The notes under the pieces were generated by a model. The model did no database searches, was not told the DNA's origin, and saw nothing but the letters and a program-made list of their open reading frames with translations. From the NCBI RefSeq assembly GCF_003172935.1, contig NZ_QGKS01000294.1, positions 1-64,000 of the forward strand: a DNA stretch of 64,000 bases. Direction: 5' to 3'. How positions within the stretch are numbered: the stretch's first letter is position 1; each line of letters starts with the position of its first letter. The stretch is from Micromonospora sicca (GTDB lineage Bacteria > Actinomycetota > Actinomycetes > Mycobacteriales > Micromonosporaceae). A program made the translations under genes and the position numbers. This document shows, one piece after another, positions 10,933 through 19,577 of the stretch.

Positions 10933-11442
10933 CTACCGGTCGTTCACCAGGCCGCCCAGACCGCCTTCGACGTCGGCGTCCCACAGCGGTGTCTCCGACT
11001 CGGCATAGGGCTCATCGATCACGTGCACCGCGGCCTCCTCGGCGCTGGCGCCACCCCCGTCGACCCCGACGTCCCTGCCCACGGAGTCCGCCTCGACATC
11101 CTCGCCGAAGCCGTCGTTGGTGTCGACGAGCCGCCCGGCCCGCAGGTCGCGGTCGAACCCCCGCCGGGTCAGCTCGTCCTCGTCGCCGTAGGGGGCGGGA
11201 TCTTCGTCGGACGAGAGGTCGGGCTCCTCCTCGGCGAGCCGCTGCGCGAGCGACTCGCCCGCGTGCTCCTCGGCTGCGGTGGTCCCGAAGCGGTTGGCGC
11301 CCGACCACCGATCGCTCGCCACGATCCCGACGTCGAGCGGGTCCTCGACACCGTCCTCGAGGGTGTCGGAACCGTCGAGGACGCCGTCGTCCTCGATGTC
11401 GTCGTACTGCTGCACCTCGTAGCTACCGGCATCGGCGCTCAT
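10933..11442 (-). CDS. DUF5709 family protein
   Basis: The 169-residue acidic, soluble protein is rich in Asp, Glu and Gly, with no membrane segment or signal peptide. It starts MSADAGSYEVQQYDD and contains LDVGIVASDRWSGANRFGTTAAEE, which matches the actinobacterial DUF5709 family. Function is unknown for the family. The ATG at 11440-11442 follows GAGAGG with good spacing. It is divergent from the response-regulator gene across a 165-bp gap that holds no other gene. Confidence 0.8.
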   Translation of the reverse strand: MSADAGSYEVQQYDDIEDDGVLDGSDTLEDGVEDPLDVGIVASDRWSGANRFGTTAAEEHAGESLAQRLAEEEPDLSSDEDPAPYGDEDELTRRGFDRDLRAGRLVDTNDGFGEDVEADSVGRDVGVDGGGASAEEAAVHVIDEPYAESETPLWDADVEGGLGGLVNDR

Positions 11443-11607: not shown

Positions 11608-13275
11608 ATGGGCGCCATGGCGAACCCGGTGATCCTGACCGTCGACGACGATCCGGTGGTGTCCCGGGCGGTCGCCCGCGACGTCCGCCGCCGGTACGGC
11701 GACCGCTACCGCGTGGTGCGGGCGAACTCCGGGCCGGAGGCCCTGGACGCGCTGCGCGAAATCAAGCTACGCAGCGAGCAGGTGGCGCTGCTGCTGGCCG
11801 ACCACCGGATGCCCGAGATGACCGGAATCGAGTTCCTCGAGGCGGCGATGGACCTCTTCCCGGCCGCCCGCCGGGTGCTGCTGACCGCGTACGCGGACAC
11901 CGACGCCGCCATCGACGCGATCAACGTGGTCGACCTCGACCACTACCTGCTCAAGCCGTGGCATCCGCCGGAGGAGAAGCTCTACCCGGTGCTGGACACC
12001 CTGCTCGACGCCTGGGCGGCCAGCCCGGACGCCGCCCTGGCCGAGCTCCGGGTGGTGGGGCACCGCTGGTCCGCGCCGTCGTTCACGGTCCGCGACTTCC
12101 TCGCCCGCAACCTGGTGCCGTACCGCTGGCTGCTGGTGGACGAGCCGGAGGGCGCCCGGCTGCTCGACGCGGCCGGGGCGACCGAGGCGGACCTGCCGCT
12201 GGTGGTGACCGCCGAGGGCAAGACCCTGGTGGCGCCGACCCAGACGGAGCTGGCCGCAGTGGCCGGGCTCACAGTGGCGCCGGCGACGGACTTCTACGAC
12301 CTGGTGGTGGTCGGCGGCGGCCCCGCCGGACTCGGCTCAGCGGTGTACGGGGCGTCGGAGGGGCTGCGGACGGTGCTGGTGGAACGCCGCGCCACCGGCG
12401 GCCAGGCCGGGCAGAGCAGCCGGATCGAGAACTACCTCGGCTTCCCCGACGGGGTCTCCGGCGCCCAGCTCACCGACCGGGCCCGGCGGCAGGCGACGAA
12501 GTTCGGCGCCGAGCTGCTGAGCACCCGCGAGGTGGTGGGGCTGAGCGCCGCCGGGTCGGCCCGACTGCTGCGCTTCGACGACGGCGGCGAGATCGCCGCC
12601 CACACGGTGGTCCTCGCCACCGGGGTGTCGTACCGGGTGCTCGACGCGCCCGGATTGTCGGACTTCACCGGCCGGGGCGTCTTCTACGGCAGCACCGCCA
12701 CCGAGGCGCCGAGCTGCGTCGACCAGGACGTCTACATCGTCGGCGGGGCCAACTCGGCCGGCCAGGCCGCGGTGCACTTCTCGCGGTACGCCTCCCGGGT
12801 CCACCTGCTGATCCGGGGCGCCGACCTCACCGCCTCGATGTCCCGCTACCTCATCGACCAGCTGGAACGGATCGACCAGATCACCGTGCACCCGCACACC
12901 ACGGTGGTCGGCGGCGCGGGCGCGGACCACCTGCGGGAGCTGACCCTCTGCGACGCCCGTACCGGGCAGACCCGGACCGTGCCGACGTCCTGGCTGTTCA
13001 TCTTCATCGGCGCGGAACCCCGCACCGACTGGCTGGACGGACTGCTGGTCCGCGACCCGCGGGGCTTCATCGTCACCGGCCCCGATCTCCTCGCCGGCGG
13101 GCGACGCCCCGCCGGCTGGCCGCTCTCCCGCGACCCGTACCACCTGGAGACCAGCGTGCCCGGGGTGTTCGCCGCGGGCGACGTCCGGGCCCAGTCGGTC
13201 AAACGGGTCGCCTCCGCCGTCGGCGAGGGAGCGATGGCCGTGTCCCTCGTGCACCGCTACCTGGAGGCGCAGTGA
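11608..13275 (+). CDS. Response-regulator receiver fused to a thioredoxin-reductase-like FAD/NAD(P) oxidoreductase
   Basis: The protein is 555 residues. Residues about 7-130 form a CheY-type receiver with acidic pocket VDDDP and phospho-acceptor Asp65 in LLLADHRMPEM. A linker of about 90 residues resembles the thioredoxin-like segment seen in this fusion class. From about residue 229 comes a two-Rossmann flavoprotein: GGGPAG for FAD at about 235 and a second dinucleotide site VYIVGGANSAG at about 375, ending with the GVFAAGDVR FAD motif. The CxxC active site of true thioredoxin reductases is absent: its place reads STATEAPSC, keeping one Cys (370). The start is ATG at 11608 with GAGGTGG before it; a second ATG at 11617 is possible. 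It overlaps the histidine kinase gene by 4 bp, so the pair is a coupled signalling unit. The electron acceptor is unknown. Confidence 0.88.
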   Translation: MGAMANPVILTVDDDPVVSRAVARDVRRRYGDRYRVVRANSGPEALDALREIKLRSEQVALLLADHRMPEMTGIEFLEAAMDLFPAARRVLLTAYADTDAAIDAINVVDLDHYLLKPWHPPEEKLYPVLDTLLDAWAASPDAALAELRVVGHRWSAPSFTVRDFLARNLVPYRWLLVDEPEGARLLDAAGATEADLPLVVTAEGKTLVAPTQTELAAVAGLTVAPATDFYDLVVVGGGPAGLGSAVYGASEGLRTVLVERRATGGQAGQSSRIENYLGFPDGVSGAQLTDRARRQATKFGAELLSTREVVGLSAAGSARLLRFDDGGEIAAHTVVLATGVSYRVLDAPGLSDFTGRGVFYGSTATEAPSCVDQDVYIVGGANSAGQAAVHFSRYASRVHLLIRGADLTASMSRYLIDQLERIDQITVHPHTTVVGGAGADHLRELTLCDARTGQTRTVPTSWLFIFIGAEPRTDWLDGLLVRDPRGFIVTGPDLLAGGRRPAGWPLSRDPYHLETSVPGVFAAGDVRAQSVKRVASAVGEGAMAVSLVHRYLEAQ

Positions 13276-14723
13276 CCACCCCGGCCGACCGGCTCACCCC
13301 CGACGAGCTGCGCACCCTGTTCCTCTTCGCGGCGCTCGACGACGGCCAGCTCGCCTGGCTGGCCGAGCACGGACGGGTGGAGCAGCGCGCCGGTGGGACC
13401 GTCGTGTACGGCGAGGGCGAGGCCGCGACCTGCTTCTTCGTCCTGCTGCGCGGGACGGTCTCGCTGCACCGGCGGGTGGGCGGCGACGACGTCGAGGTCA
13501 GCCGGACCGACCAGCGCGGCGTGTACGGCGGCGCGACCCAGGCGTACCTGGACGACCAGGTCGAGCAGGTCTACCGCAACTCCATGCGGGCGGTGACCGA
13601 CGCGGACTTCTTCGTCCTGCCCGCGGAGCACTTCGCGCACGCCCTGCGCTCCTGGTTCCCGATGGCGATGCACCTGCTGGAGGGGCTGTTCTTCGGCATG
13701 CGGGACAGCCAGGCGATCGTGGGTGAACGGGAGCGGCTGCTCGCCCTCGGCTCGCTGTCCGCGGGCCTGACCCACGAGCTGAACAACCCGGCCGGCGCGG
13801 CCGTCCGGGCCACCTCGGTGCTGCGGGACCGGGTCGCCGGGATGCGGCACAAGCTCGCGCTCATCGCCGACGGCCGGCTGGACGGCCGTGCGTTGCAACG
13901 GCTGGTGGAGTTGCAGGAGGAGGCGGTGGCCCGGGTGGCGACCGCACCGAAGCTGTCCCCGATGGCCGCCTCCGACGCCGAGGACGCGGTGACCGACTGG
14001 CTGGACGAACACGAGGTACGCGGCGGCTGGGACCTCGCGCCGACCCTGGTCGCCGGCGGGCTGGACGCCGCCTGGCTGGACCGGGTGCAGCCGGCGGTGG
14101 GCCGGGCGGACCTGGAGTCGGCGGTGCGCTGGCTGACCTACACCGTGGACACCGAGCTGCTGATCCGCGAGATCGGGGACGCGGTCACCCGGATCTCCGG
14201 CCTGGTCGGCGCCGCCAAGCAGTACTCCCAGCTCGACCGCGCGCCGTTCCAGGTCGTCGACGTGCACGACCTGCTGGACGCCACCCTGGTGATGTTCAAG
14301 GCGAAGATCCCCGCCGACGTCCGGGTGGTCAGGGAGTACGACCACGCGCTGCCGCCGGTGCCCGCGTACGCGGCCGAGCTGAACCAGGTCTGGACGAACC
14401 TGATCGACAACGCGCTGGGCGCCATGGGTGACCGGGGCGTGCTGACGCTGCGTACCGGACGCGCGGGCGACCAGCTGGTGGTGGAGGTGGCGGACACCGG
14501 CCCGGGCATTCCGCCCGAGATCCGCCCGCGCATCTTCGAGCCGTTCTTCACCACCAAGCCGGTCGGCACCGGCACCGGACTCGGGCTGGACATCTCGTAC
14601 CGGATCGTGGTGCGCAAGCACCACGGCGACATCCGGGTCGAGTCCGCGCCCGGGATGACCGTCTTCCGCGTGCTGCTCCCCCTGCCCACCCAGCGTCCCG
14701 CGGGCACGCCCGGCGGCGGGTGA
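13272..14723 (+). CDS. Sensor histidine kinase with N-terminal cyclic-nucleotide-binding-like domain
   Basis: The GTG start at 13272 overlaps the preceding stop (GTGA) and gives 483 residues. Residues about 8-140 form a cNMP-binding/Crp-type beta-roll (LRTLFLFAALDDGQLAWLAEHG, then FFVLLRGTVSLHRR). A dimerisation helix follows with phospho-acceptor His168 in GLTHELNNPAG. The C-terminus is an HATPase with NLIDNALGAMG (N box), VADTGPGIPP (G1) and GTGTGLGLDIS (G2). No membrane segment is visible, so it senses a cytosolic ligand or nucleotide and should phosphorylate the receiver of the upstream oxidoreductase. Conserved pairing of such genes is known in actinobacteria; the signal is not. Confidence 0.9.
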   Translation: MTTPADRLTPDELRTLFLFAALDDGQLAWLAEHGRVEQRAGGTVVYGEGEAATCFFVLLRGTVSLHRRVGGDDVEVSRTDQRGVYGGATQAYLDDQVEQVYRNSMRAVTDADFFVLPAEHFAHALRSWFPMAMHLLEGLFFGMRDSQAIVGERERLLALGSLSAGLTHELNNPAGAAVRATSVLRDRVAGMRHKLALIADGRLDGRALQRLVELQEEAVARVATAPKLSPMAASDAEDAVTDWLDEHEVRGGWDLAPTLVAGGLDAAWLDRVQPAVGRADLESAVRWLTYTVDTELLIREIGDAVTRISGLVGAAKQYSQLDRAPFQVVDVHDLLDATLVMFKAKIPADVRVVREYDHALPPVPAYAAELNQVWTNLIDNALGAMGDRGVLTLRTGRAGDQLVVEVADTGPGIPPEIRPRIFEPFFTTKPVGTGTGLGLDISYRIVVRKHHGDIRVESAPGMTVFRVLLPLPTQRPAGTPGGG

Positions 14724-14730
14724 CCACCTC

Positions 14731-15561
14731 CTAATCGCCGGCGGCTCGCATCTCCTCTTCGGACAGACCCCGGCGCCAGTACCCGGCGAAGGTCACCTGC
14801 CGGCGGTTCAGCCCGCGCTCGCCGACCAGCTGCCGCCGGACCGCCCGCACCATCCCCGCCTCGCCGGCGACCCAGGCGTACGGGGTCGTGGTCGGCAGGT
14901 CAACGGCACGCAGGGCGGGCAGCAGCGCGACCCGACGCCCCGCGCGGAAGACCCAGGTCACCTCGACCTCGGCCGCCGTGGGCAACGGCCGCAGGTCGGC
15001 CGGGTCCGGCGCCTCGACGAGGACCCGGGCGCGGGTGCCCGCGGGCAGCCAGGCCAGGATCCGCTCGACGGCGGGCAGCGCGGTCTCGTCGGCGACCAGC
15101 AGCACCCCGTCGGTGTCGGCGGGCGGGCGGAATCGGACGGTCCGCTCGTCCTGCACCGCCGGGCCGAGCACCACCACCCGGTCGCCGGGCCCGGTCCGCC
15201 CGGCCCAGCGGGACGCCGGGCCGGTGTCGCCGTGCCGGACGAGGTCGATGTCCACCTCGGTCCGCTCCGGGCGGTGCTCCCGGATGGTGTACGAGCGCAT
15301 CACCGCGCGGACGGCGGGGTCCATGGCGCGCCAGGCGGTGAACCAGTCCTCCTCCGTCTCCGGGGGCAGCACCGGCTCGAGCTGACCGGGGTGCGGGAGG
15401 AAGAGGGAGACGCTCTGGTCGCGTCCGCCGCCGGCGAAGCCGGCCAGCCCGTCGTCGCCGAGGGTGACCCGGACCAGGGAGGCGCCGACGCGCCGGGTGC
15501 CGACGACGACCGCTGGGTAGCAGCGGTACCGGGGCGGGGCCGGTGCCAGGGCGGTGCTCAT
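14731..15561 (-). CDS. Siderophore-interacting protein (ferric-siderophore reductase, ViuB/SIP family)
   Basis: The 276-residue cytosolic flavoprotein removes iron from imported ferric siderophores by reduction. The N-terminal FAD-binding barrel includes RSYTIREHRPERTEVDIDLV, the family's flavin-binding signature, followed by GPASRWAGRTGPGDRVVVLGP. The C-terminal NAD(P)H domain has LLVADETALPAVERIL and ends with WVAGEAGMVRAVRRQL and TFAGYWRRG. It overlaps the end of the iron-siderophore lipoprotein gene by 4 bp (ATGA) and shares its iron-box promoter. The ATG at 15559-15561 has GAAGAAGG seven bases upstream. Confidence 0.93.
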   Translation of the reverse strand: MSTALAPAPPRYRCYPAVVVGTRRVGASLVRVTLGDDGLAGFAGGGRDQSVSLFLPHPGQLEPVLPPETEEDWFTAWRAMDPAVRAVMRSYTIREHRPERTEVDIDLVRHGDTGPASRWAGRTGPGDRVVVLGPAVQDERTVRFRPPADTDGVLLVADETALPAVERILAWLPAGTRARVLVEAPDPADLRPLPTAAEVEVTWVFRAGRRVALLPALRAVDLPTTTPYAWVAGEAGMVRAVRRQLVGERGLNRRQVTFAGYWRRGLSEEEMRAAGD

Positions 15562-16577
15562 CCGGCGACCTTCTTCGCGCCCCGGATGGCGGTGGCGAGG
15601 TTCTCTAGCAGCGGGGCGGCGCCGGCGTAGGAGAAGCGGGGCACCGCGTCCCACGGGGCGACCTGGCCGGCGCGCACGGCGGGCAGCTGCGCCCAGGTCG
15701 GCTTCCGGGCGAGGTCGGCGGCCTGCAACGCGGTGCCGCGGTTGTCCAGCAGGATCAGGTCGGCCGGGAACTTCCCGGCGTTCTCCCAGCTGAGCGACTC
15801 GAAGTAGTCGCCCTGCGCCAGCTTCGTGGGCACGACGATGTCGACGCCCAGCTCGGCGAAGTACATCAGGTCGGTGCTGATCTTCGGGTTGGAGACGTAG
15901 AACAGATCGGGGCTGCCGGAGGCGGCGAGCACCCGGATTCCCGGGTTGGCCTTGACCGCCGCCCGGACCGCGTCGCCGGCGGCGGCGAAGCGGGCCCGGG
16001 CGTCGGTGACCTTCTTGGCCGACAGGTCGGCGCCGAGGGACTCGGCGAGCTGCGCGTACCGCTCGATGGGGCGGGTCATCGGAACCCGGGCGGTGGTCAG
16101 GGCGACGGTGGGCGCGAGCGGGAGGATCTTCGCCCGGCTCTCGTCCGGCACGTACCAGAGCGCGCCCGGGTCGTACATGTGGGTGACCAGCAGGTCGGGT
16201 CGGAGGGTCGCGTACCGCTCCAGGTTGAACTCGCCCCACGCGTTGCCGAGGATCTCGACGCCTTCGACGTCGAGGTCGCCGGCCTGCGGGTCGCGGCTGC
16301 CGTCGGCGCGCCGGGTCTCGCCGAACACGCCGGCGATCTGCTCGTCCAGTCCGAAGTCGACGAGCGCGGCGGCGACGCCGGTGAAGGCGACGATCCGCGC
16401 GGGACGGCTGGCCGCGCTGACCTTCTCGCCGCGGTCGTCGGTGAAGGACCAGGGGCCGCCGGTGGGCTTCGCGACGGGTGCGGCGGGATCGCCGCCGCGT
16501 CCGCAGCCGGCGAGCAGCGCGGCGAGGCCGGCGCCGGCGGCGAGCAGCCCACGACGGGTGACGGTGGATTCGAGCAT
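15558..16577 (-). CDS. Iron-siderophore ABC transporter substrate-binding lipoprotein
   Basis: The 339-residue protein has twin arginines (VTRRGLLAAG) and a lipobox LLAGC, so it may be exported by Tat and anchored at the membrane. It has the FecB/FepB fold: RPARIVAFTGVAAALVDFGLDEQIAGVFG, then LRPDLLVTHMYD, where a helical backbone joins two lobes. It should bind the ferric siderophore and dock with the permeases encoded divergently (16676-18732). The ATG at 16575-16577 follows AAGGA at good spacing. The iron box at 16623-16641 lies 46-64 bp upstream. Confidence 0.92.
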   Translation of the reverse strand: MLESTVTRRGLLAAGAGLAALLAGCGRGGDPAAPVAKPTGGPWSFTDDRGEKVSAASRPARIVAFTGVAAALVDFGLDEQIAGVFGETRRADGSRDPQAGDLDVEGVEILGNAWGEFNLERYATLRPDLLVTHMYDPGALWYVPDESRAKILPLAPTVALTTARVPMTRPIERYAQLAESLGADLSAKKVTDARARFAAAGDAVRAAVKANPGIRVLAASGSPDLFYVSNPKISTDLMYFAELGVDIVVPTKLAQGDYFESLSWENAGKFPADLILLDNRGTALQAADLARKPTWAQLPAVRAGQVAPWDAVPRFSYAGAAPLLENLATAIRGAKKVAG

Positions 16578-16622
16578 GGCGAGGTCCTTCGGTACAGGTC
16601 GGGATGACCATGGACAGCGGAG

Positions 16623-16641
16623 TTAGGTTAGCCTAACCTAA
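16623..16641. promoter_or_regulatory. Iron box (IdeR/DmdR operator) TTAGGTTAGCCTAACCTAA
   Basis: This 19-bp perfect palindrome matches the actinobacterial DtxR-family consensus. It sits between the divergent siderophore-binding lipoprotein/reductase operon and the permease/ATPase operon. Iron-loaded repressor bound here would shut off both sides. Confidence 0.95.
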
Positions 16642-16675
16642 AGCGCTGTCAAGAACGTCCGCATCGGAGTCCGCC

Positions 16676-17710
16676 CTGTCCCTCACCCGTACGGCCCCGC
16701 CCCCGACGACACCGCCGGCGGCCCGGGCGCCCCGCCGCACCGCCCGCCGGCTCGCGGGTCTCGCGCTGAGCCTGCTGCTGCTCGCCGTGGTGGCCGGCCT
16801 CAGCATCGCCGTCGGGGCGAAACAGCTCTCCCCCGCCGAGGTGTGGCACGGCCTGCTGCGACCCGACTCCCCCGAGTACGCCGTCGTGCACCGGATGCGC
16901 CTGCCCCGTACGCTGCTCGGCCTCGTCGCCGGCGCGGCGCTCGGCGTCGCCGGCGCGGTCACCCAGACGCTGACCCGCAACCCGCTGGCCGACCCCGGCC
17001 TGCTCGGCATCAACGCCGGCGCCTCCGCCGCGGTCGCCACCGCCACCGCCGTCCTGGGCGTCGCGTCCGGCGACATCTGGTACGCGCTGCTCGGCGCCGC
17101 CGTCGTCACCGTCGCCGTGTACGCGGTCGGCGGTGGTCGCGGTGCCACCCCCACCCGGTTGGCCCTCGCCGGCGCGGCCCTCAACGCCGTCCTCTACTCG
17201 TACGTCAGCGCGGTGATGCTGCTCGACGCGGCGTCGCTGGAGCGGCTGCGGTTCTGGACCGTCGGCTCGCTCGCCGGCGCGCGCGACGACACCGTCCCGC
17301 GGGTGCTCCCCTTCGTCGCCGTCGGACTGCTGGTCGCGCTGGTCAGCGCCCGCCCGCTCGACGCGCTCGCCCTCGGCGATGACTCCGCCCGGACCCTCGG
17401 CGCCCGCCCCGGCGCCATCCGGGCGGCGGCCATCGTGGCGGTCACCCTGCTGTGCGGGGCGGCGACGTCGGCGTGCGGGCCGCTGGTCTCCGTCGGGTTG
17501 CTGGTGCCGCACCTGGTCCGGGCGCTCACCGGGCCGGACCTGCGCTGGTCGCTGCCGTACTGCGCGGTGCTCGCGCCGGTGCTGCTGCTCGCCGCCGACC
17601 TGACCGGTCGGGTGCTGGGCCGCCCCGGCGAACTGCCGGTGGGCACGGTGACCGGGGTGCTGGGCGGCCTGCTCTTCCTGCACCTGGTCCACCGGGGAGC
17701 CCGCCGATGA
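16676..17710 (+). CDS. FecCD-type ferric-siderophore ABC permease, subunit 1
   Basis: This membrane permease of the BtuC/FepD family has about nine to ten hydrophobic segments. The hallmark RMRLPRTLLGLVAGAALGVAG and the arginine-containing coupling region are present, followed by TRNPLADPGLLGINAGAS. The start is uncertain. The first canonical codon (GTG, 16787) would cut off half of the first membrane helix. The coding pattern continues upstream to a CTG at 16676 preceded by GGAG (16666-16669) six bases away, which gives 344 residues with a basic leader. It overlaps the next permease gene by 4 bp (ATGA), and its promoter contains the iron box. Confidence 0.85.
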   Translation: MSLTRTAPPPTTPPAARAPRRTARRLAGLALSLLLLAVVAGLSIAVGAKQLSPAEVWHGLLRPDSPEYAVVHRMRLPRTLLGLVAGAALGVAGAVTQTLTRNPLADPGLLGINAGASAAVATATAVLGVASGDIWYALLGAAVVTVAVYAVGGGRGATPTRLALAGAALNAVLYSYVSAVMLLDAASLERLRFWTVGSLAGARDDTVPRVLPFVAVGLLVALVSARPLDALALGDDSARTLGARPGAIRAAAIVAVTLLCGAATSACGPLVSVGLLVPHLVRALTGPDLRWSLPYCAVLAPVLLLAADLTGRVLGRPGELPVGTVTGVLGGLLFLHLVHRGARR

Positions 17711-18732
17711 TCGTGCTGCGCCTGCCGGGCGGTCTGTCGCTGCGCCTGCGGGCCCGGGCGCTCGCCGTCGGCGCCGGGATCGCGCTGCTCGCCCTCGCCC
17801 TCGGCGTCCTCGCCCTGGCCGGCGGCGAACAGCTCCTGCGCCCGGCCGACGTGCTGCGCACGCTCACCGGCGGGGGCGCACCGGCCGACCGGTTCATCGT
17901 CCTCGACCTGCGGCTGCCCCGGCTCGCCACGGCCCTCGGCGTCGGGGCGGCCCTCGGCCTGGCCGGCGCGGTGTGCCAGGCGCTGCTCCGCAATCCACTC
18001 GGCAGCCCCGACGTGCTCGGCTTCACCCAGGGCGCGGCGACCGGCGGGCTGACCGTGGTGGTGCTGGGCGGCAGCAGCCTCGCCCTGGGCGCCGCCGCCG
18101 TCGCCGGCGGACTCGCCACCGGCGCCGCGGTGTACGCGCTCGCCGGGCGGCGCGGCCTGTCCGGTCACCGGCTGGTGCTGGTCGGGATCGGCGTCACGGC
18201 GATCCTCGCCGGGGTGAACGGCTTCCTGCTGACCCGGGCGCCGCTGATGGACGCCGCCCGGGCCACGCTCTGGCTCACCGGCAGCCTGGATGGGCGGGGC
18301 TGGGTGAACTCGCTGCCCCTGCTGGCGGCGCTGGCCCTGCTCGCGCCGGCCGTCCTCGCCGGCGGGCGGGCGTTGGGCGTGACCGGGATGGGCGAGGACC
18401 TTGCCACGGCGCTCGGCGTGCCGGTGCGGTGGCTGCGGCCGCTGCTGCTCGCGGCGGCGGTCGCGCTGGTGTCGCTCGCCGCGGCCGCCGCCGGACCGGT
18501 GTCGTTCGTCGCGCTCACCGCGCCGCACCTGGCCCGCCGGCTGACCCGGGCGCCGGGACCGAACCTGCTGCCGGCCACCCTCCTCGGCGCCGCGTTGCTG
18601 GTCGCCGCCGACCAGCTCGCGCAGCGCGCCGTCACCGGGCACCAACTGCCGGTGGGCGTGGTGACCGGGGTGCTCGGCGGTGGGCACCTGGTCTGGCTGC
18701 TGGCCACCGAACGTCGAGCCGGCCGGCTGTGA
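17707..18732 (+). CDS. FecCD-type ferric-siderophore ABC permease, subunit 2
   Basis: The 341-residue integral membrane protein is the partner of the upstream permease. It shows the family signature DLRLPRLATALGVGAALGLAGAVCQ followed by LLRNPLGSPDVLGFTQGA, and a late GPVSFVALTAPHLARRL coupling-helix region that meets the ATPase. The ATG at 17707 overlaps the previous stop. The subunits form the heterodimeric channel that moves ferric siderophore into the cytosol. Confidence 0.93.
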   Translation: MIVLRLPGGLSLRLRARALAVGAGIALLALALGVLALAGGEQLLRPADVLRTLTGGGAPADRFIVLDLRLPRLATALGVGAALGLAGAVCQALLRNPLGSPDVLGFTQGAATGGLTVVVLGGSSLALGAAAVAGGLATGAAVYALAGRRGLSGHRLVLVGIGVTAILAGVNGFLLTRAPLMDAARATLWLTGSLDGRGWVNSLPLLAALALLAPAVLAGGRALGVTGMGEDLATALGVPVRWLRPLLLAAAVALVSLAAAAAGPVSFVALTAPHLARRLTRAPGPNLLPATLLGAALLVAADQLAQRAVTGHQLPVGVVTGVLGGGHLVWLLATERRAGRL

Positions 18733-18761
18733 CCCGCCCCCACGAGAACGGAGCACCACCC

Positions 18762-19577
18762 ATGCGCGCCGACACCCCCCGGCTGGTCGGCCGGGCGATG
18801 ACCCTCGCGTACGAGCGGCGGACCGTCGCCGAGGACCTGACGGTGCCCGTACCCGACGGCTCGTTCACCGTGATCATCGGTCCCAACGCGTGCGGCAAGT
18901 CCACGCTGCTGCGCGCGCTGGCCCGGCTGCTCCGCCCCGCCGCCGGCGCGGTCCTGCTCGACGGCGCGGACATCCATCGGCGCGGCACCCGCGAGGTCGC
19001 CCGCGTCCTCGGCATGCTGCCGCAGTCCTCCGTCGCCCCGGACGGCATCACCGTCGCCGACCTCGTCGCCCGCGGTCGCCACCCGCACCAGGGGCTGCTG
19101 CGCCAGTGGTCCCGCGACGACGAGCGGATCGTCGCCGGGGCGATGGCCGACACCGGCGTGGCCGACCTCGCCGACCGGCCGGTAGACCAGCTCTCCGGCG
19201 GGCAGCGGCAGCGGGTGTGGATCGCCATGGCGCTCGCCCAGCAGACCCCGCTGCTGCTGCTGGACGAGCCGACGACGTACCTGGACATCGCCCACCAGGT
19301 CGAGGTCCTGGACCTGTGCGCCCGGCTCCACGAGGAGCAGGGGCGCACCCTGGTGGCGGTGCTGCACGACCTCAACCAGGCCGCCCGCTACGCCACCCAC
19401 CTGGTGGCCATGCGCGACGGCGCGGTGGTCGCCGCCGGGGAGCCGCGCCGGGTGGTGACCGCCGCCCTGGTCGAGGAGGTGTTCGGGCTGCCCTGCCGGG
19501 TCATCGACGACCCCGAGACCGGGACGCCGCTGGTCGTGCCCGCCGCCCGCCGCCGGGTCGGCCCGGCGCCGGCGTAA
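18762..19577 (+). CDS. Ferric-siderophore ABC transporter ATP-binding protein (FepC type)
   Basis: The 271-residue ATPase drives siderophore import. The Walker A is GPNACGKST (note Cys in place of the more usual Gly/Ser), Q-loop MLPQSS, signature LSGGQRQRV, Walker B LLLLDEPT and switch His in AVLHDLNQA, all in order. The ATG at 18762 has GGAG eight bases upstream. An in-frame GTG at 18729 would overlap the permease stop but has no better ribosome site. It is last gene of the iron-regulated rightward operon. Confidence 0.93.
   Translation: MRADTPRLVGRAMTLAYERRTVAEDLTVPVPDGSFTVIIGPNACGKSTLLRALARLLRPAAGAVLLDGADIHRRGTREVARVLGMLPQSSVAPDGITVADLVARGRHPHQGLLRQWSRDDERIVAGAMADTGVADLADRPVDQLSGGQRQRVWIAMALAQQTPLLLLDEPTTYLDIAHQVEVLDLCARLHEEQGRTLVAVLHDLNQAARYATHLVAMRDGAVVAAGEPRRVVTAALVEEVFGLPCRVIDDPETGTPLVVPAARRRVGPAPA

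Follow-up and report, generated by a model that had tools for sequence, protein, structure and literature searches.

The 64,000-nucleotide stretch of the Micromonospora sicca genome analysed here (contig NZ_QGKS01000294.1, positions 1 to 64,000; hereafter the window) contains two genes for a putative two-component system, in which the response regulator is a fusion of a receiver domain with a flavoprotein resembling thioredoxin reductase (TrxR). The first open reading frame (ORF1) encodes the receiver (REC), a predicted glutaredoxin-like middle domain and a TrxR-like module with motifs for flavin adenine dinucleotide (FAD) and NAD(P)H, and the second (ORF2), which shares 4 bases with the first (13272-13275), encodes a histidine kinase with a sensor domain of the cyclic-nucleotide-binding (cNMP) fold (Table 1). 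Neither the TrxR-like module nor the putative glutaredoxin fold carries a CxxC motif, and this CxxC-less pair recurs in many bacteria and is not an oddity of one genome. ORF1 has a further in-frame ATG at 11617, and the AlphaFold2 models of the two proteins have a mean predicted local distance difference test score (pLDDT) of 83.2 for ORF1 and 80.9 for ORF2. Inspection by eye spotted no membrane segment in ORF2, and a Pfam scan of both proteins found no DNA-binding or other output domain, which agrees with the view taken in an earlier, sequence-only reading of this DNA that the output is not DNA binding.

Table 1. Features of the gene pair in the window, with positions counted from its first letter.
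Feature	Residues	Position	Strand	Basis or remark
ORF1, receiver + glutaredoxin-like + TrxR-like flavoprotein	555 aa	11608-13275	+	translation, Pfam, 81-sequence alignment, AlphaFold2 model
Receiver (REC)	9-121	11632-11970	+	PF00072 Response_reg, 48.4 bits (cut-off 30.2)
Codon of phospho-acceptor Asp65	65	11800-11802	+	alignment
Predicted glutaredoxin/mycoredoxin-fold domain without CxxC (S155-x-x-S158)	~146-222	12043-12273	+	profile search, model
TrxR-like FAD/NAD(P)H module	230-552	12295-13263	+	Pfam, TIGR01292 (under cut-off), structural superposition
FAD motif GGGPAG	236-241	12313-12330	+	
NAD(P) motif GGANSAG	379-385	12742-12762	+	
Former redox site S362-T-A-T365, with Glu366 (12703-12705) and Cys370 (12715-12717)		12691-12717	+	94-row alignment
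ORF2, histidine kinase, GTG start	483 aa	13272-14723	+	HATPase_c 89.9 bits, AlphaFold2 model
CRP/PKA-like (cNMP-fold) sensor	41-126	13392-13649	+	PF00027, 29.2 bits (cut-off 27.5); profile matches
Codon of phospho-accepting His168 (GLTHELNNPA)	168	13773-13775	+	His in 81/81
HATPase_c ATP-binding domain	368-472	14373-14687	+	PF02518, 89.9 bits

Two sets of relatives underlie most of the counts given here. The 81-sequence alignment, which describes the window's clade, consists of the window and 80 loci from a scan of species genomes; the scan, built on receiver motifs, gave at least 584 loci, and the set consists of the 80 best, every one of which carries an actinobacterial name. The broader 94-row set combines the window, 40 of the 80 loci (the odd-numbered ones), plasmid records and further genomes, and comprises 66 REC forms, 23 cNMP forms and five unregulated forms; two genes were entered twice (L157/L181 and L169/L182), and a few rows are short. 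The kinase gene lies directly 3' of the flavoprotein gene on the same strand in 79 of the 80 relatives (in the exception, L086, the two are 3.9 kb apart), and the pairing is therefore not due to chance. Ten plasmid records hold at least 80% of ORF1 at one site, and a kinase gene adjoins it in nine of them (from Streptomyces, Nocardia, Tsukamurella, Nonomuraea, Deinococcus, Gloeothece, Nostoc sp. C052, Caballeronia and Paraburkholderia), which places plasmid-borne pairs in Actinomycetota, Deinococcota, Cyanobacteriota and Burkholderiales. The tenth, from Nostoc edaphicum, has a transposase gene beside the flavoprotein gene and kinases farther away; the plasmid gene tables are incomplete, and a neighbour absent from a table is not proven absent. 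When 36 genomes of another actinobacterial order were searched, six gave a match, and the flavoprotein gene adjoins all eight kinase matches, with the kinase first in two. The coupling of the flavoprotein gene to one for a cNMP-domain histidine kinase, put forward in the sequence-only reading, is supported by these counts.

Both partners retain the residues expected for phosphotransfer. ORF1 has a REC fold with an Asp acceptor, acidic residues, a Thr and a Lys, as in response regulators, and this site (D13, D14, D15, D65, T93 and K116) shows no substitution in any of the 81 sequences, so that the normal phospho-Asp noted earlier at position 65 stands. ORF2 has the phospho-His and HATPase boxes of a histidine kinase, with N380, D408, G410, G412, G436 and G438 retained in 80 of 81 sequences, the remaining row being short. 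Across eight sequences from four phyla, 109 of 332 columns are invariant in the TrxR half and 41 of 125 in the receiver; by this count, the TrxR half is conserved to the same degree as the receiver.

The flavoprotein module looks functional, as judged from its sequence and predicted structure. Pyr_redox_2 matches ORF1 residues 230-541 with 114.2 bits (cut-off 26.1), and the FAD and nucleotide motifs, both described as intact in the sequence-only reading and both present in ORF1, are nearly invariant in the 81-sequence and 94-row alignments. Most of the 94 rows likewise retain the motifs GGQ, GANS and GD, together with the residue pair K532-R533. Structural comparison of the TrxR-like module of the ORF1 model was done with VIA-align and gave Z scores of 32.7 to 5u63 (root-mean-square deviation (rmsd) 2.4, 306 aligned) and 32.4 to 5mh4 (rmsd 2.2, 299 aligned). 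The model matches the arrangement in which NADPH meets the flavin (rmsd 2.2 to 5mh4 ‘FR’ and 2.5 to the TrxR-thioredoxin complex 1f6m) and superposes poorly on the alternative arrangement (rmsd 7.6 to 5mjk ‘FO’). What the module lacks is the dithiol: STAT stands in place of CxxC, as had been noticed before, and a Cys is found in the old active-site hexad in none of the 94 rows, be they REC, cNMP or unregulated forms, which rules out that the loss reflects decay in one genome. CxxC occurs elsewhere in the core in three of the 94 rows, and at position 366, 90 rows have Glu and four have Asp.

The middle domain, a part that the sequence-only reading missed, is predicted to be a thioredoxin fold that has likewise lost its CxxC, an assignment that draws on profile search and model. 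A profile built from 31 members ranks solved glutaredoxins first, with the best match to Rv3198.1 (2lqo, listed as a putative glutaredoxin; E 8.2e-9), which we take to be Mycoredoxin-1, and in the AlphaFold2 model the elements of this region follow the order beta-alpha-beta-alpha-beta-beta-alpha. Pfam gives no match on the window's own middle stretch and matches Glutaredoxin in four of the 31 members, with E up to 0.1; the middle domain of one relative (L178) reaches E 4.8e-4 and 20.7 bits, under the curated cut-off of 22.9. Of the 81 sequences, 80 have Ser at position 155; at position 158, 79 have Ser and two have Cys.

ORF1 has two cysteines in total, Cys370 and Cys448. The first is invariant in the window's clade (81/81) and aligns near what we take to be the loop where thioredoxin docks in TrxRs, and it may form a mixed disulfide with a partner or across the dimer. 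It is on this residue that an ordinary thioredoxin reductase would have to rely, acting via Cys370 and a thiol of a partner or of the other subunit. The report that a cNMP-TrxR reduces thioredoxin (PMC6544261) speaks for such an enzyme, as does the conservation within the clade; set against this, Cys370 is retained in 69 rows of the broad set of 94 and is not Cys in the other 25, with Val in Deinococcus aetherius, ORF1 stays below the cut-off of the TrxR equivalog TIGR01292 (thioredoxin-disulfide reductase; 212.5 bits, cut-off 343.45), and the genome holds a true TrxB elsewhere (C501, 406.4 bits), and we regard this explanation as the least probable of those considered. The presence of that TrxB also rules out that ORF1 replaces it in this genome. 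A cryptic dithiol pairing with Cys370 inside the protein, which the sequence-only reading had named as a finding that would refute its proposal, is ruled out as the family mechanism, because the Cys448 position is Cys in 25 of 81 sequences and Cys370 is the sole Cys in three of the 81 proteins.

The sensor domain of the kinase matches PKG, PKA, DNR and CRP in profile searches and thus has the cNMP-binding fold. In cyclic-nucleotide receptors, the phosphate-binding cassette contributes a Glu and an Arg to the pocket. In the window's clade the pocket is degraded: the Glu site is Ala88 in ORF2 (Ala in 78, Ser in two and Ile in one of the 81 sequences), and the Arg site falls on Tyr101 (Tyr in 80/81), as given by a profile alignment (three of the four cassette-spanning domains of the best chain) and by a second alignment. 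A classical cAMP/cGMP receptor in this clade is therefore unlikely, to judge from the aligned residues, and the link to nucleotide signalling suggested in the sequence-only reading is not supported for the window, its CRP/PKA fold notwithstanding. Both Glu and Arg are present in six of six aligned kinases of the other actinobacterial order (L178, L184-L187 and L189), and so nucleotide sensing should not be dismissed in general; that alignment also contains four kinases of other phyla, none of which has the Arg and two of which have the Glu. The pocket thus appears to be preserved in one branch and changed in the others, and a nucleotide may play a role in these relatives, although this leaves the odds for the window's own kinase unchanged. 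Kinases with an intact and with an altered pocket provide a natural contrast for the study of nucleotide sensing.

A third component, likewise missed in the sequence-only reading, is a small protein with a UBP-type zinc finger (zf-UBP), a domain best known from ubiquitin systems. Its gene immediately adjoins the pair in 20 of the 80 loci, 17 times directly 3' of the kinase gene on the same strand, once directly upstream on the same strand and twice on the opposite strand. In L178 (5774-7441), the kinase is fused to a C-terminal zf-UBP, each of its three Pfam domains scores above the cut-off, and the gene for this fused kinase adjoins a REC-TrxR gene and lies near a second, free-standing zf-UBP. 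In a sample of 119 genomes of the phylum, the window's genome included, 35 zf-UBP matches were found, 30 of them with surroundings, and the kinase or flavoprotein lies within 1.5 kb in five of these 30. The window's genome has two zf-UBP genes elsewhere (G000:C44, 24333-24527, and G000:C126, 6553-6741), of which the first encodes a C-terminal tail shared with the operon-encoded proteins of Streptomyces, Tsukamurella, Pseudonocardia and Cellulomonas. The second is preceded by another ORF, presumably for a Na+/H+ antiporter. A literature search, largely outside subscription journals, gave among the matches listed no link of zf-UBP to the pair, the one match being from a plant. The kinase-zf-UBP link is a second unexplained point, next to the missing dithiol.

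The same core is also found with a CRP-like domain replacing the receiver, or with neither. A search of family genomes gave matches at 1e-60 in 105 of 150, with REC and cNMP forms mixed, and on a quick tree the regulator types cluster, with three changes against a shuffled mean of 25.6 (root unused). Among 12 annotated non-REC loci (eight cNMP and four without regulator), zf-UBP adjoins in five (3/8 and 2/4, respectively), and trxA is near or an immediate neighbour in four, all of the cNMP type and in a clpB cluster, with zf-UBP between in three. In the unannotated locus L182 (5578-13997), a cNMP-type TrxR-like gene is clustered with clpB, thioredoxin and DUF1931 genes by Pfam; the adjoining ORFs, read from their sequence, are presumably dnaJ, grpE and dnaK, which would make this a heat-shock gene cluster. 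The adjacency and fusion of zf-UBP and the trxA neighbourhood provide hints to a protein acceptor. They speak against an NAD(P)H oxidase or diaphorase under phosphorylation control, in which a small molecule such as O2 or a quinone would take up the electrons of reduced FAD, and which we consider improbable. Such an enzyme would fit the absence of CxxC in all 94 rows, two further REC forms without any Cys across the available 499 and 515 residues, both incomplete at the locus edge, and the conserved basic pair K532-R533, with which the last helix of the model begins and which is probably close to the flavin.

The reading we prefer, with a probability of about 0.45, is that the pair is a two-component system in which phosphorylation gates the output, an NAD(P)H-flavin oxidoreductase with an external protein acceptor. 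In this model, the kinase would read a cue via its CRP-fold domain, which in the window's clade has probably ceased to be a classical cAMP/cGMP receptor, and in many relatives would do so jointly with the UBP-type zinc-finger protein. It would then phosphorylate Asp65, and the receiver would gate the TrxR-like module through the glutaredoxin-fold linker, which has no active-site cysteines. The module would move hydride from NAD(P)H to FAD and, because there is no CxxC, electrons would exit directly from the flavin to an acceptor docking from outside, most likely a thioredoxin-fold or zinc-finger cysteine protein. Several points weigh against this proposal. The literature searched holds no biochemistry for the REC form, loop 262-283, which we take to lie near the flavin in TrxRs, is poorly modelled (pLDDT below 50), and the invariance of Cys370 in the clade suggests a role that the model does not provide for. 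Furthermore, the acceptor is a guess derived from gene neighbourhood, 60 of the 80 loci and the window are without zf-UBP in the sequence stretch examined, and the kinase-zf-UBP fusion is seen in one of the eight kinase matches of its order. A version of the model with all three parts, in which a kinase adjoining or fused to zf-UBP (as in L178) places a flavoenzyme under phospho-control and this enzyme reduces its protein partner directly from the flavin, without thiols of its own, strikes us as rather improbable; equally tentatively, such a redox relay, not found in the literature searched, would replace the classical TrxR dithiol.

The direction of control could also be the reverse, with the flavoprotein half as input, so that the FAD/NAD(P)H state would report the reductant level of the cell and set the kinase/phosphatase balance or the availability of the receiver. 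This arrangement, which we think unlikely though still worth weighing, would account for a family without active-site thiols and for two proteins in which Pfam finds no output domain, and according to the accessible part of a census of response regulators, REC-joined domains can be inputs (PMC5847659). Against it, crude neighbour clustering shows no effector gene beside the pair except zf-UBP, and a core that is also found with a cNMP-fold domain in cis, or with no regulator found, is a better fit to an enzyme. If the flavoprotein is the output, as we prefer, phosphorylation would serve bacteria as a switch for electron flow, beyond transcription alone, and an enzyme of the TrxR fold would operate in the absence of the dithiol by which thioredoxin reductases are defined.

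In the window's clade, neighbour clustering based on a crude gene caller gave no recurrent neighbour beyond the pair. Upstream of ORF1, on the opposite strand and divergent from it, lies an ORF for a very acidic protein of 169 aa (10933-11442), and the genes downstream (14731-19577) are apparently unrelated to the pair and, with names assigned from ORF sequence, presumably form an iron-siderophore uptake cluster (binding protein, permeases and ATPase). In all three annotated cyanobacterial REC-form loci (plasmids; L042, L044 and L045), glgX and an AGE-family epimerase gene precede the REC-TrxR gene. In one genome, the REC-TrxR gene is in two adjoining pieces (G112:C1, 2864861-2866518; query 3-324 and 325-555), perhaps owing to a frameshift or sequencing error.

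Several known systems share parts of this design. Low-Mr TrxB has the same fold and the FAD and NAD(P)H motifs, whereas ORF1 is without CxxC, falls under the TIGR01292 cut-off and has the added receiver and glutaredoxin-like domains. Ferredoxin/flavodoxin-NADP+ reductases of the TrxR fold work without CxxC; they score lower against the ORF1 model (Z 26.1 for 8c16 and 25.1, compared with 32.7 for TrxR), and ORF1 stops at the final helix, without a further extension. AhpF, second in the Foldseek ranking, also has a thioredoxin-fold domain ahead of a TrxR-like module, but keeps CxxC in both its thioredoxin-like and TrxR-like parts, while ORF1 has it in neither and carries a receiver in addition. 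Among solved structures, Mycoredoxin-1 scores best against the middle domain, where SxxS stands in place of the active-site CxxC. Another is ATII-TrxR, a cNMP-TrxR from Red Sea brine which, according to the available text, reduces thioredoxin (Km 1.03 uM) and 5,5'-dithiobis(2-nitrobenzoic acid) (DTNB) with NADPH or NADH, and whose redox centres, as depicted by its authors, are Cys206-Cys223 and Cys376-Cys467 rather than a CxxC (PMC6544261). Compared by description, both systems contain CRP-like and TrxR-like modules; in ATII-TrxR (PMC6544261), the CRP-like domain is in cis in the receiver's place and no kinase is needed, whereas ORF1 has a receiver and a separate kinase. The relatives of this architecture that were examined have the glutaredoxin-like domain and lack CxxC, as in ORF1, and a CxxC-less family would stand in conflict with a member published as an active thioredoxin reductase (PMC6544261). 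Neither the loss of CxxC from both domains, nor the change in the cNMP pocket, nor the association with a zinc finger turned up in the literature searched, as far as its texts were accessible. Finally, REC-thioredoxin reductase response regulators, in which REC is joined to a TrxR-like domain as in ORF1, form a class in a published census, where they are called a ‘Mycobacterium-like combination’ (PMC5847659). The accessible part of the census text does not mention the CxxC loss or a glutaredoxin-like middle, nor does it speak of a constant kinase partner or of a zinc-finger gene nearby. With this class already in print as a census entry, the pair in the window is therefore a member of a known architecture.

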